Assembly: GCA_003252075.1 (NCBI GenBank) | Contig: QKDO01000041.1 | Span: forward strand, 1 to 48,794 | Origin: Nitrospirota bacterium | Lineage (GTDB): Bacteria; Nitrospirota; Thermodesulfovibrionia; Thermodesulfovibrionales; UBA6898 | Direction of reading: 5' to 3' | DNA length: 48,794 nucleotides | Part shown: positions 28,702 through 33,977 of the stretch, piece by piece | How the letters are laid out: the number at the start of each line of letters is the position of its first letter | Position numbering within the stretch: position 1 is the first letter of the stretch | Position numbers and translations under genes: made by a program | Notes under the pieces: generated by a model | The model's input: the letters and a program-made list of their open reading frames with translations, nothing else | Databases searched by the model: none | What the model was told of the DNA's origin: nothing

Positions 28702-29152
28702 CCAACCTGCCTCTCCGATTGCGCGTTAATAGTACCATGAAGCATTGCCTGCTTGCCATTATCGGCTGAGGTTTTTCCTGCATAAACCCTAGCTCATGAT
28801 CTTCGGAATTTGCGGTGATTCAGATCATGTGTCATCAGAATAAACTGTGATATTGGCAGTGAGCCGCTCATTGCCCTTTTCATACATAAAGTTTTGAAGG
28901 AGATTCCATTATACTTTCAGCTCCTCTTGCCATCAGCTGGATGATTATTTCTTAGGTAACTCGGCCATGGCAGGCTTCAGTAATGCCACGGAGCGATAGG
29001 CATATCATTTCATATTGAAAGCCCCGGGCGCGGGTCCGGGGTTAGTTACATGGTGACGTGCTCGTGCTAGCGCGTATTTATGGAAATGTTGACTCCACCT
29101 CCAATTATTGAAAATTGATAGTGGATAAAAAGTGAGGAATACCAAAAGAAAG
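28702..29152. other. 450-bp stretch without a supported gene
   Basis: AT-rich intergenic DNA between the PAS-SGDEF gene and the attC-like site. It contains a GC-rich inverted repeat (CCCCGG at 29022-29027 and CCGGGG at 29036-29041) without a T run on either side. No ORF, tRNA or promoter that I can support. Confidence 0.5.
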
Positions 29153-29215
29153 GTTTAACGTGGGCATCAGCGGGACCCGGCTCTTTCGGCGACCCGCTGC
29201 ATGCCGAGGTTAGAC
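29153..29215 (-). other. attC-like integron recombination site
   Basis: 63-bp imperfect palindrome with the layout of an integron attC. Outer 7-mers GTTTAAC (29153-29159) and GTTAGAC (29209-29215) fit the R'' (RYYYAAC) and R' (GTTRRRY) rules in either orientation and pair with one wobble. 3-nt unpaired spacers follow on both sides. The inner arms 29163-29174 and 29193-29205 form a 12-bp stem with a single extrahelical base at 29200, then an 18-nt loop region. The stop codon TAA of the gene at 29210-29611 lies inside the R''-type box, as in real gene cassettes. The identity of the bulged base does not fit the classical rule perfectly for that orientation. No integrase gene is in the window. 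Confidence 0.6.
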
Positions 29216-29611
29216 CTTTCCGTTCTCACTGTGCCCTGGGATCTTCTCAATCCTCTTCCTTGCCTCTTCTCTTTTCCAGAAAAACAACGCTACAACAAAA
29301 CAGATCACCATCGTGACGCAGACTGAAAGAAGGGTCTTCCCAAGTATGTTCTTGTTGTTAAAATGAAATGCAGCCCATAACCCGAAAGGCAGAGGTAAGA
29401 AGATTGGCACATGTCCCTCAAGCAAAATGGGCGACATGAATGCAATCACTGTGAGGGACAGCAAGGATAGTTTCGACGCATACTTCAAATGGACATATTT
29501 GCGAAGGAGAAACAAAACGACCAGACCAGGAATGGAAAGAGGAGCAAATGCGGGCAAGCTAAACAGAAATAGTATCGGAATTGCAATCATGTTAAGGGGA
29601 GCATCAATCAT
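29210..29611 (-). CDS. small membrane protein, probable integron-cassette gene
   Basis: 133 aa with about four hydrophobic segments (residues 8-38, 48-62, 68-82, 92-112) and a charged cytoplasmic-looking tail (WKREEARKRIEKIPGHSENG). I do not recognise the family. Its stop lies inside the attC-like site at 29153-29215. A GTTAGAC core (minus strand, 29625-29631) lies 14 nt before its start, so the gene occupies the space between two cassette boundaries. Base composition is more AT-rich than the flanking housekeeping genes. Confidence 0.55.
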   Translation of the reverse strand: MIDAPLNMIAIPILFLFSLPAFAPLSIPGLVVLFLLRKYVHLKYASKLSLLSLTVIAFMSPILLEGHVPIFLPLPFGLWAAFHFNNKNILGKTLLSVCVTMVICFVVALFFWKREEARKRIEKIPGHSENGKV

Positions 29612-29893
29612 TAATCCCCTTCTGGTCTAACAATTACCATACGAACTGCCCGCTTTTCTGGTTCATTGGTCAAAATATAACATACTGAACTCTGTGAGTG
29701 AATACAAAACCAATAATATCGGGCCGGAATAAAAAGGGCATTTCGTATAATCTGATAATAAGGACTATAGGCGAACTTCGTATAATCCGTATAATTGGCA
29801 GTCGGTATCGATTACCAAAAGAAATCTTCACCATTTGGTAAGGTCTTCATACGCAACACTTCAGGAAGGATTGTTGCCCATCGGCCTCCTACC

Positions 29894-30127
29894 TTAAGGT
29901 TGCTGTCGCCGTATATATTCTCGTATCCCATTTATGGACCATCGCATAGAGACAAATGTCGTTACAATCATAATATGCAGTGAAATTGGGCCGGAGAGCT
30001 GAACAAACCATTCAGGGCCACTGTCTCCCCATCCAGTTAGAGCGTATATCAGGAAGCGAAATGAGGCTATTATCATCAGGCCGGTTATTAGCCCAAGACC
30101 GACACCAAAAAAAGACTCCAAAACCAT
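29894..30127 (-). CDS. small hypothetical membrane protein
   Basis: 77 aa with two predicted transmembrane helices (FFGVGLGLITGLMIIASF region and PISLHIMIVTTFVSM region) and a basic C-terminus (IREYIRRQQP). No recognised family. The amino-acid pattern is typical of a real small membrane protein, but support is limited to that. Neighbours are the cassette-like gene and a divergent secreted protein. Confidence 0.4.
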   Translation of the reverse strand: MVLESFFGVGLGLITGLMIIASFRFLIYALTGWGDSGPEWFVQLSGPISLHIMIVTTFVSMRWSINGIREYIRRQQP

Positions 30128-30420
30128 AGTAGACGATTTTTTATTGAATGCTTTTTCATTTGTGTCTTATCTTCATATCAACTCCCTTGTGGCTTTCCAC
30201 GTGTACTCCACACCATTGTATCACGCCCTTTGGCAGAGACTTACAGGAAGAATTATAGCCTGCCAGGTAGCCACTTCATCCATTGTAACATTAGCTAAAA
30301 AGCACGAGCACCACCTATCTCATTTTTCAACCTATTTTCCTTGACGCTTCCCTCAATTGCCCCTATAATTATGAAAATACACACGATGCATTAAAAACAA
30401 TGTTGGGTAAGCAGATAAAC

Positions 30421-31500
30421 ATGCATAAGCTCCGCATTCTTTCCTGGTTATTTATTATACTTCTGATTTTTTCTGCTACATCATATGCCAGTACTCCCAA
30501 GTCAGAAACTATTGCGATAAATGAAATGGAAAATACCTATGAACTGACGGTCCCCATCAGCAAGCTTTTCATGACTTTACCTAAGAAGGGCTTGTCGTTG
30601 AAACAAGGCAGCATCGGCGGGGGCACAGACAACCCACGGTACTTCTATTTTGAGGATAAGGCTCGCAACATCATCATTTCCGGCTGGTTTGAGTCGGATC
30701 TGAATTTTACAAACATCAACACCTTTTGGGAGAACGAAACTAAAGCTTGGAAGCGAGGAGGTCTCCCAGAGCCCAAGAATGTATTGTTTACGAAGATCAG
30801 CAACTGGGATGCAATCCTTTATGACATAACGGCGCCAGGCGGCAACAATACGCACATAAGGGCGCACTGGCTGCAGTCGGGGACATGGATCGATATTCAC
30901 CTTTCGATAACGTCCAATAGACCCGTGACTGAGTTAAAAGCCACTCTAGAGTCACTGCTCAGTGCTATTCAGGTGAAGGAAAAGAGTGTCCACGGCGATA
31001 GCGTTCAGGAAAGTGGGATTCGCCGATACTCCTTGCCTCGGCATGGAAGTCTGCAGTTAAGCGCTCCAGCCTCATGGTCCGACGATTATCTAGAGCCTCG
31101 CGACAACTTTCCCACTATCACCTATACGCAGTCAAACGGTGCTCCATTTAATATATTGATCACCCTCATCTGGTCCGGCAAAGGCAGATCTCCACTTCCG
31201 AGCGTAGACCAGCTCAAGCAAAGAGTTTGGCAGTCAGCGGAACAGGTCAGACCTCAGGCGGTTGAGAAGACTATCGGGGTGAAGGAGCTGAAGGGGACTG
31301 CAGCTAGCGGGTATTATTTCACAGCAACGGACCGTGCCCCAAAAGCAGGCGAATTTAAACACATGACACAGGGCATGATGCGCGTTGGGGACCTGATGGT
31401 AATTTTCACAGTTCTAACCAATGATGGCCAGTCGAATATTATTGATCAAGCGCTTGCGATGATGAAAAGTGCTTACCATACCGTTGGCAAGGGGATCTAA
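30421..31500 (+). CDS. secreted hypothetical protein with two related domains
   Basis: Signal peptide (MHKLRILSWLFIILLIFS, cleavage near SYA-ST), then two similar domains of about 150 residues each. Both begin with an ELTVP/YSLPRHG-type strand and contain a Trp/Gly-rich centre and an amphipathic C-terminal helix (TELKATLESLLSAI and IIDQALAMMKSAYHT). The layout resembles PsbP/DcrB-like periplasmic folds, but I cannot assign a family. I prefer the Met at 30421 because it starts the signal peptide; an ATG at 30400 is in frame. The TAA stop sits in ATCTAAC (31495-31501), which also fits an R''-type core, but no matching partner arm was found. Confidence 0.6.
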   Translation: MHKLRILSWLFIILLIFSATSYASTPKSETIAINEMENTYELTVPISKLFMTLPKKGLSLKQGSIGGGTDNPRYFYFEDKARNIIISGWFESDLNFTNINTFWENETKAWKRGGLPEPKNVLFTKISNWDAILYDITAPGGNNTHIRAHWLQSGTWIDIHLSITSNRPVTELKATLESLLSAIQVKEKSVHGDSVQESGIRRYSLPRHGSLQLSAPASWSDDYLEPRDNFPTITYTQSNGAPFNILITLIWSGKGRSPLPSVDQLKQRVWQSAEQVRPQAVEKTIGVKELKGTAASGYYFTATDRAPKAGEFKHMTQGMMRVGDLMVIFTVLTNDGQSNIIDQALAMMKSAYHTVGKGI

Positions 31501-32380
31501 CTATTGATTTGCCTCGGCGACGCTACCAGTTTGACCAAGAAAATGCATAGGCATAAAAAAGATGGCAATGGACCTGTTTACCACCGCGCTCGCATGGTCA
31601 CTTCTCAGTGTGCTTGTATTCGCAGTGTCAATTGTCGATTTTGCTTAAGGGCTTAAGAACAGAGATATTTTATCGGGCGAAACTTCCTGAACCTTGTGGC
31701 AACTTGATTTGTCATATTGGTGACTCGTGGGGCGTTTCCTCTCTTCCATATGGACTACGGCAAAGGCGCTCGAAAGTTTTACTCGGTGCATCAGGACCTT
31801 AACCATTTACGCTATCTATCCTAACAGTGATCGCGTTACGCAACGATTAATTCCGGGAAGCAATTCCCGCCAGGCGTCGTTCTGTTAGCTGCCTGCCTCT
31901 ATGCATGGCTGCAGAAGCGAGCGCTGAATTGATTGGCGACCAAAGTCGTTCGAGCGGACACTTAACACCATCGTTAACGATTTCTAGTAGAACTCCGCAC
32001 CGTTAGAGTATGCCGTCAGGCCGTTTAGTGCAGGAAGTAAGATTGCCTCCGGCCCTTTCATGGCAACCATTGTAACATTCACCCCTAAAGCTGCATAGCG
32101 ATTTTCTCTTGGCCACCGACGAGTCAACAGGTCTTACGAATCGCAACTATTACAGTATGCCAAAAGAAATGATGCGTAACGTCAGGGCTCACTGCATCGA
32201 CGGTTTTATTGGCCATCCAACAGAGCGGTTCGTTACGCATTCTTTCTCCCATTGGTAAGGTCCGTCAGTGTCTTAACCAAGAAGTCCGCATTGTACTGAT
32301 GTCCCTAAGGTTGCCCCTAGTGTCCCATGACATGTAACATGAAATTGGGCGCAGGATCAATTTCAGTCATACTGCGAACG
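31501..32380. other. 880-bp gene-poor stretch with CGTTACGCA repeats
   Basis: No ORF here looks like a real protein. The stretch contains three copies of CGTTACGCA or its complement (31834-31842, 32173-32181 inverted, 32231-32239). The last two form 10-bp arms (ATGCGTAACG at 32172-32181, CGTTACGCAT at 32231-32240) about 50 nt apart. Also present are CTAACAG (31811-31817) against CTGTTAG (31882-31888) with a CGGGAA/TTCCCG hairpin between them, and the 12-bp palindrome ATCGTTAACGAT at 31971-31982. These could be worn integron attC sites or remnants of mobile DNA. Confidence 0.4.
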
Positions 32381-33088
32381 CTATCCCGGTGTCCAGAAGG
32401 GTCCCGACTTGCCCAGCTTCTTCAGCGATAAGATCAGCTCCGATGCATACTCATTGAGTCGAGAGAGATAGTCCGGCTGTAGACGATTCCTGTGCAGAGG
32501 CCCGCTAAACGCCGTTGCCCAATTGGACAAGGACATGATGGACTCAGTCGAAACGGAATCATAAAGCGACCAACTCTTCACGTGCTCCTCCGACCGGAAG
32601 AGATTCATGCGGCTTCAAGCCGAGCCCCAAGTCACTTCTCCTGTTAAAGCCTTAGCGAACGGAATATTCATATGACCTACGGTCGTTGGTGGATTGACTT
32701 CGAGGATCTCCTCGTCACGCATACGGATGTGGATGGGTTGCCCACAGTCCAGGCAACTGGTGTTGATATGGATCTCCGTACCAGGGAAAAGCCAGCGCAC
32801 GGCCAGCACTTCGATTCCTCACTGTCCGTACCACTTCTGCTCCCCCTTGATCGTCACACGATGATGTGTCGGCACGTTGGAAAAAGGCGCCCATGACTCA
32901 ACGTAGTCTGTGTCTTTAACAAACCAGCAGGCTATGGAGGACTCGGCTGCTTTGTGCTGCACATGTCTGGCCTCGTCTGGTCTCACCCCGAGAATTCCCG
33001 CAAGCTCGGTATAGTGCGGTGACCGCCCAGTCTTTACAAAATGCTCCACGACAGCCGTGTAAGCTCGTTGTACCAATGCGTCTTGCAT
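32381..33088 (-). CDS. MerB-like organomercurial lyase with two in-frame UGA (selenocysteine) codons
   Basis: Continuous 235-codon frame ending in TAG, interrupted only by TGA at codons 90 and 158. It reads as an alkylmercury lyase (MerB) homologue: N-terminal helical domain (LAGILGVRPDEARHV, like LAGILDWPAERVAAV of MerB), then WYGQ-U-GIE where MerB has LYAW-C96-ALD99, then NTSCLDCGQP at the MerB Cys117 region, then GSA-U-SRMNLFRS where MerB has SFC-C159... aligned without gaps to FFAS. Both TGAs therefore replace the two catalytic cysteines that cleave the carbon-mercury bond; Asp99 is Glu93. The start has GGGAGG 9 nt upstream and a good promoter. SECIS-like hairpins follow the TGAs, and selB and selA lie just upstream on the same strand. 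Expected to act in the cytoplasm on organomercurials or another organometal (inference). The alternative is a pseudogene with two nonsense changes. Confidence 0.82.
32585..32602 (-). promoter_or_regulatory. SECIS-like hairpin after the second UGA
   Basis: On the minus strand, CUCUUCC and GGAGGAG form a 7-bp stem (one G-U pair) closed by a GGUC loop. The loop begins 20 nt after the UGA at 32617-32615. Bacterial SECIS elements are short hairpins directly downstream of UGA with a G-rich apical loop, and the E. coli fdhF element also carries GGUC in its loop. Stem, loop and distance all fit. Confidence 0.75.
32615..32617 (-). other. in-frame UGA, predicted selenocysteine 158
   Basis: TGA at codon 158 of the MerB-like frame, in the context GSA-U-SRMNLFRS. 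It aligns with catalytic Cys159 of E. coli MerB. The frame continues for a further 77 codons with good similarity to the MerB C-terminus. Confidence 0.8.
32794..32810 (-). promoter_or_regulatory. weaker SECIS-like hairpin after the first UGA
   Basis: On the minus strand, AGUGC and GCGCU form a 5-bp stem (one U-G pair) with a 7-nt loop UGGCCGU whose two G residues lie 15-16 nt after the UGA. This is at the short edge of the usual distance and the stem is brief, so the call is tentative. Confidence 0.4.
32819..32821 (-). other. in-frame UGA, predicted selenocysteine 90
   Basis: TGA at codon 90 of the MerB-like frame, in the context QKWYGQ-U-GIEVLAV. It aligns with catalytic Cys96 of E. coli MerB (LYAWCALD), and the acidic residue three positions later (Asp99 in MerB) is Glu here. 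Confidence 0.8.
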
Positions 33089-33141
33089 AACACTGCCTCC
33101 CTTCTGTGTGCTTACCGTACTTTATAATTCCCTCTAATATT

Positions 33142-33170
33142 CTTCTATCAAAAAATCATATACTTGTCAA
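33142..33170 (-). promoter_or_regulatory. promoter of the MerB-like gene
   Basis: On the minus strand: a perfect TTGACA (33170-33165), a 17-bp spacer and TAGAAG (33147-33142), about 55 nt upstream of the start. AT-rich surroundings. A GTACGGTAAG segment just downstream faintly recalls half of a mer operator, but the dyad partner is missing. Confidence 0.5.
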
Positions 33171-33364
33171 ACAACAACGGCAAAGACAGATAGGGATTAT
33201 CTGATGATATCCGGATGTTATGAATTCTGAAGAATTCCATTCGTTATATTTAGTCTTACAGTGCTTCTCAATGCTGTCAGCTACAGGAAGTATGTATCAG
33301 GATCTTGGGAGTCCCTGTCGATGTGGTATCGCATAACCTTCTGCCTACCGCACAATGTCAATGA

Positions 33365-33832
33365 TCAGTTTATCTTCTTGAACGAACCTTTCACATCGAT
33401 GCTGACACCGTGCCAGTTGCTGACGTTGCCCATGGTGCCGGTAAAGGTCACCTTGTCCCCCGGCTTGAGGCTGCTGCGGTCCTCCTGATTGACGATCAGC
33501 ACGACATTGTACCCCTTAACAGGCGTGCTCCCCGGCGCGAGAATTAGGACCTTGCCTTTGGACGAAGACGGTGAGCCGGCCAGATTCGTTACCGTGCCGG
33601 CACCGGAAACCTTTTTGCCTTTGATCTCATGCACATAGTCACGCTGGTGATCAATGAAATCAGGAGCAGCCCCAGGCTCCCGATAATTCGGTTGCCATTC
33701 TGTCTTACCCTTCAGAGACTCAAGGTTCGTGATAACCTGTTCTACATTCAGCGGCTCTTCCGCAGCAACGATAGAAACAAATGTGGGAATAAGCAATGCC
33801 GTAAAGAGCAGTGTGATATTCTTCATGGTCAT
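33365..33832 (-). CDS. secreted small OB-fold-like protein
   Basis: 155 aa with a signal peptide (MTMKNITLLFTALLIPTF, cleavage near VAA-EE) and a beta-rich mature part (GKKVSGAGTVTNL, then KGYNVVLIVNQEDRSSLKPGD and KVTFTGTMGNVSNWHGVSI, each read in parts) resembling tRNA_anti-like/OB-fold periplasmic domains. Function unknown. It lies between the MerB-like gene and selB on the same strand. Confidence 0.6.
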   Translation of the reverse strand: MTMKNITLLFTALLIPTFVSIVAAEEPLNVEQVITNLESLKGKTEWQPNYREPGAAPDFIDHQRDYVHEIKGKKVSGAGTVTNLAGSPSSSKGKVLILAPGSTPVKGYNVVLIVNQEDRSSLKPGDKVTFTGTMGNVSNWHGVSIDVKGSFKKIN

Positions 33833-33977
33833 CCCCCCTCAGGATGGTTTTGCCTCAATTATAGCTGAGGAAAAGAAAAAAGGAAGCTTTTTTCCGGCGA
33901 AGGCAGATGTCAAATCATCTGGGCTAATTCGACAGCAAATCACCACAGGCATGACCGTGGGCAGCCATAATCTCTGA

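Follow-up and report, generated by a model that had tools for sequence, protein, structure and literature searches.

The gene cassette at about 29 kb of contig QKDO01000041.1 (Nitrospirota bacterium, GCA_003252075.1) very probably lies in an integron platform that has no integrase gene of its own, where an IntI-type integrase would have inserted it at a true attI site. Sequence comparison establishes the identity of this attI, the cassette boundaries, the attC, the right border, and recurrence within the genome, the genus and the order. The window, i.e. the whole stretch of DNA that we analyzed, comprises 48,794 nucleotides; its source genome is called G000 and the other G numbers denote genomes of relatives. 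Positions of the elements are collected in Table 1.

Table 1 Elements of the integron platform in the window
Feature	Position	Strand	Basis
Right border B, starts G^TTAAACC	29096..29159	minus	16 copies spread over four genomes of the genus
attC site	29153..29215	minus	box grammar, bottom-strand fold, covariance model
Gene cassette, 472 bp	29159..29630	minus	delimited by GTTAGAC and attC R''; conserved flanks reach both ends
Cassette ORF, 133 aa, hydrophobic, no family	29210..29611	minus	sequence; no Pfam match, no homologue
attI left part, ends ..GGCAGTTCGTATGGTAATTG^TT	29629..29689	minus	20/22 match to recurrent motif
Extended -10 resembling a promoter (TGTTATATT), presumably the cassette promoter Pc	29674..29682	minus	conserved position
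A2 block	29735..29801	minus	also upstream of intI in G007:C54 (82% over 65 bp)
A1 block	29804..29878	minus	recurs ahead of further platform genes within the genus
C block, promoter-like repeat	32054..32099	minus	also upstream of platforms in the genus
Second attC-like site, then B-like border (to ~32105)	32174..32238	minus	20.3 bits, E 0.034

Read on the minus strand from 29215 to 29153, the whole attC is GTCTAAC CTC GGCATGCAGCGGGTC GCCGAAAGAGCC GGGTCCCGCTGATGCC CAC GTTAAAC. It is composed of R'' (GTCTAAC, 29215–29209) followed by the spacer CTC, L'' (GGCATgCAGCGGG) with one extra base, L' (CCCGCTGATGCC), and R' (GTTAAAC, 29159–29153) preceded by the spacer CAC. All positions of the outer boxes pair but one, the spacers remain unpaired, and the inner stem contains the one extra L'' base. 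The TAA stop codon of the 133-aa ORF is located inside R'', while GTTAGAC at the other end of the cassette (29631–29625), 13 nt upstream of the ATG, is the exact complement of R'' GTCTAAC (7/7). A first-pass annotation, made from the letters alone, had described a 63-bp attC with such boxes, spacers and an extrahelical base, a stop codon in R'', and a cassette of about 470 bp starting from a GTTAGAC core; each of these was borne out, the cassette measuring 472 bp and the core lying one nucleotide closer to the start codon than the 14 nt given there.

As single-stranded DNA, the bottom strand of the attC folds at −18.6 kcal/mol (z −3.99; 0/200 shuffles), and the top strand folds more weakly (−15.9 kcal/mol, z −3.07). 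With a grammar score of 16.0, the attC outranks every other site on either strand of the window; one site in 152 one-strand dinucleotide shuffles of 48.8 kb reached this score. We also scored the site with a self-built covariance model of 16 attCs from relatives and other contigs, from which the attC under study was left out and in which seven of the 16 had long loops shortened for alignment. In agreement with the first-pass reading, the site ranked first in the window (30.4 bits, E 1.8e-4), and it ranked third in the whole genome (E 0.011). An Rfam scan of the window gave no match. The 133-aa ORF had no match in Pfam, no homologue among 396 genomes of the phylum, and none in plasmids. Both the attC and the cassette are judged to be genuine.

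The insertion point falls between G 29631 and T 29630. At this 5′ boundary the sequence reads AGTTCGTATAGTAATTG^TT, with TGNTATANT about 51 nt upstream, and a search of relatives showed that the left flank is conserved elsewhere up to exactly G^TT at 29631. When the 176 genomes of the order were searched for the left-border end GGAAGTTCGTATAGTAATTG^TT, allowing up to three mismatches, 64 sites were found in 40 genomes; about 19 of the sites could be chance matches (the backwards-read control gave 19). The contexts of these sites diverge directly after ^TT. In G058, G167 and G341, 474 bp separate the motif from the start of an integron integrase gene in divergent orientation, and the integrases there are 73–74% identical to IntI of G007, a congener; five further loci with a G007-type integrase have attI-like sites (15–18/22) at 470–491 bp. 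The motif TGNTATANT was found at −50 to −54 in 36/49 attI sites, as against 0/49 with shifted controls. Because intI lies at a fixed distance from such sites, similar sites accompany related integrases, the A2 block occurs near intI, and TGNTATANT is fixed in position, we identify the left border as attI. TGNTATANT/TGTTATATT is presumed from its sequence to be the cassette promoter Pc. A second integrase type has a different attI, AATAACTG^GTT (e.g. L175), which was also found without intI, adjoining B borders, at G000:C97 and G007:C20/C121. At another attC in G000 (L224, G000:C94), the cassette start follows GTGTATAGTAATTG^TTATAT, an attI-like platform.

To the right of the attC, conservation of the flank begins precisely at the G^TT of 29159. 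Five of the 16 copies of this border, B, are in G000, and most copies are preceded by different attCs. The relatives in the genus that carry B are Nitrospiraceae bacterium UBA6898 and UBA6905 (Nitrospirota). The genes between the conserved borders differ by locus, being other cassettes with other attCs: the platform at G007:C79 holds a cassette for a hemerythrin-domain protein, that at G001:C199 holds two cassettes, and the attC at G005:C96 resembles the aadA type by eye. Since the same borders enclose other genes and attCs at other loci, the cassette in the window resides in a recurrent platform. From its position and conservation, B is presumed to be the displaced right half of attI; an empty attI^B junction was not found. 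We considered whether A and B are attC sites themselves, and rejected it since they show no attC-like pairing; instead, they border the point of insertion.

Several other loci showed arrangements of their own. At L038 (G007:C79, 12300–15300), a tandem of attI, cassette, B, C, A1, more genes, and a second attC with B lies on one strand. One cassette start is common to attI-like sites of two species, at L204 (G000:C64) and L101 (G005:C247); the G000 site is degenerate, and the L204 cassette in G000 encodes an Mrr-type restriction endonuclease. At L046 (G000:C97, 5493–6227), a tyrosine recombinase of about 280 aa, not an integron integrase, lies directly past a B border.

Across the 176 genomes of the order, an intact integrase adjoins only 3 of the 64 attI matches, and two sites in G180 have a C-terminal IntI remnant alone beside them. 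G058 (99% complete) combines an attI that has intI beside it with two that lack it. In G217 (also 99% complete) the motif matches at five places and the integrase search gave nothing at E 1e-40 or better, implying that some platforms may be inert relics. The complement of the site's own cassette-start 7-mer was present downstream at 19/48 sites, compared with 122/2198 (5.6%) of swapped pairs; none of 2000 permutations was as high, and the complements were found mostly where the attC structure is good. At 38/46 sites, an ORF of 45 aa or longer begins no more than 60 nt away, versus 415/980 random positions. Judged from these boundaries and ORFs, the integrase-less attI sites hold true cassettes.

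No tyrosine recombinase was found in the window's contig, and no integron integrase scored over the cut-off in the G000 assembly (96% complete, 146 contigs). PF00589 has nine matches in G000, the best of which scored 74 bits against an integron-integrase cut-off of 265 bits. As candidates for the missing integrase these recombinases were rejected: the best two match the integron-integrase model at about 12–183 and 237–308 only, and since they miss its middle part they look Xer-like. An integron integrase is encoded in six of the seven congeners and in 18 of the 27 genomes of the family. Fragmented assemblies make up most of the genomes compared, and contigs with integrons are prone to breaking. 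The first-pass annotation had seen here a single cassette, with a lone or clustered attC and no integrase. The absence of the integrase agrees with our results, in the contig as well as in the assembly. The attC is not a lone one, as it occupies a conserved attI and ends on border B, several such platforms exist in the genome and the genus, and most congeners encode an integron integrase. Nor is it single; the covariance model also matches a second site in the window.

When an integron integrase recombines attI, at G^TT, with the folded attC of a circular cassette, the left half of attI ends up before the cassette and the right half beyond its attC. In the window, an IntI-type integrase would have inserted the cassette at the attI core TAATTG^TTAAAC, so that the left half with the promoter-like motif stayed at 29689–29631 and the right half, B, was displaced to 29159. 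R'' GTCTAAC mismatches the present R' GTTAAAC and has a perfect partner, GTTAGAC, at the cassette start, which is the pattern that insertion into attI would leave. The inserting integrase may have acted in trans, from a gene at some other place in the cell, or the insertion may predate the loss of intI here; the data suggest that the platforms are, or formerly were, served by an integrase produced from another locus. The promoter-like motif would drive expression of the cassette gene, and the platforms may have arisen via loss of intI, duplication of the attI module, or both. It is conceivable, if rather doubtful as a whole, that this Nitrospirota order has a distributed integron in which one integrase serves many dispersed attI-promoter sites, and that these docking sites are kept by selection, each able to express the cassette that it holds.

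A serious competitor, to which we give somewhat less than an even chance, is that an ordinary chromosomal integron lost intI and is now frozen, and that the other copies are relics or duplications on which no integrase acts. The IntI remnants adjoining the two G180 sites and the lack of an integrase in G000 and G217 are consistent with it, as are the degenerate second copy in the window and one orphan cassette with its border that is common to two species (G000:C33 and G005:C75). However, an integrase coexists with orphan attI copies in G058 as well as in several further genomes, the orphan sites are occupied by differing cassettes whose boundaries are intact, and the attI motif has been conserved where its flanks have diverged. 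It seems improbable that the A and B blocks make up a non-autonomous transposable element which carries and spreads attI. Blocks C, A1, A2 and B are indeed multi-copy, dispersed and partly tandem in the genus, but the copies outside the genus have in common only about 100–150 bp, the attI and promoter region, and no terminal repeats, target duplications or transposase were seen in the copies inspected.

The remaining alternatives concern the insertion event and the attC itself. The cassette is isolated and away from any integrase, as would be expected of an off-target attG insertion at a chance GTT site, and such insertions are known, at least as cited in PMC12444791. We regard this as very unlikely because both flanks are conserved and repeated and the left flank adjoins IntI genes elsewhere; an attG target is neither attI nor attC, and the target here is a conserved attI. 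That the attC is a chance hairpin can practically be dismissed: a few shuffles come near its grammar score, but the independent covariance match, the exact boundary complement and the conserved borders at both cassette ends all speak against it.

The platform inferred here, with its cassette inserted at a true attI, resembles CALINs in that cassettes bounded by attC are found without an adjacent intI (PMC9024848), and CALIN cassettes are usable in trans (PMC9668308). It differs from them since CALINs are defined by attC alone, whereas here attI, the promoter-like motif and the right border B are kept and copies of this attI may occupy several loci of one genome. With a complete chromosomal integron it shares attI, promoter-like motif, cassette and attC, and the same attI stands beside intI in G058/G167/G341, but the platform has no intI and none was found in the G000 assembly. 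The attG insertions of Loot et al. 2024, as cited in PMC12444791 and PMC12901181, are likewise isolated cassettes away from the integrase, but the target here is a conserved attI. Xanthomonas has fixed-locus CALINs, integrase-less arrays at loci apart from the intI locus, but the sections consulted report no repeated attI-promoter module (PMC12444791). IntegronFinder 2.0 listed just two CALINs in Nitrospirota, both from Nitrospira inopinata; beyond class 1 integrons, attI sites are poorly characterized, and degraded integrons have been put forward as the origin of integrase-less arrays (PMC9024848). An integron without integrase is a known kind, of which dispersed attI platforms would be a new form; in the open-licence literature we came across no description of dispersed attI sites that lack intI. 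The attI at a fixed distance from the integrase, together with the promoter-like motif at a fixed position, gives an annotation rule for the whole order. Many integrase-less cassettes can thereby be assigned to genuine docking sites, and the idea that a single integrase fills many of them becomes testable.

The second attC in the window is 3 kb from the first and has a weaker covariance score. Its R'' GCGTAAC pairs 7/7 with R' GTTACGC, and this second platform copy, near 32.2 kb, is degenerate. Just before it (32384–33088, minus strand), a MerB-like (alkylmercury lyase) sequence extends across three short ORFs; one piece of it matches Pfam at the cut-off, and it is probably a decayed cassette. 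The platform is held in a stretch of about 5 kb between a GGDEF gene and selB (28977–33970), which is absent from G005, where selB is 97% identical. No platform elements were found near selB in G001, G002 and G004–G007, and a 155-aa ORF near selB is kept in G001 and G007 and missing in G005. A 77-aa membrane-protein-like ORF adjoins the platform (29894–30127, minus strand), and similar DNA is found in G007:C20, preceded by an A1 block and an attI-like core; G005:C57 has a truncated copy.
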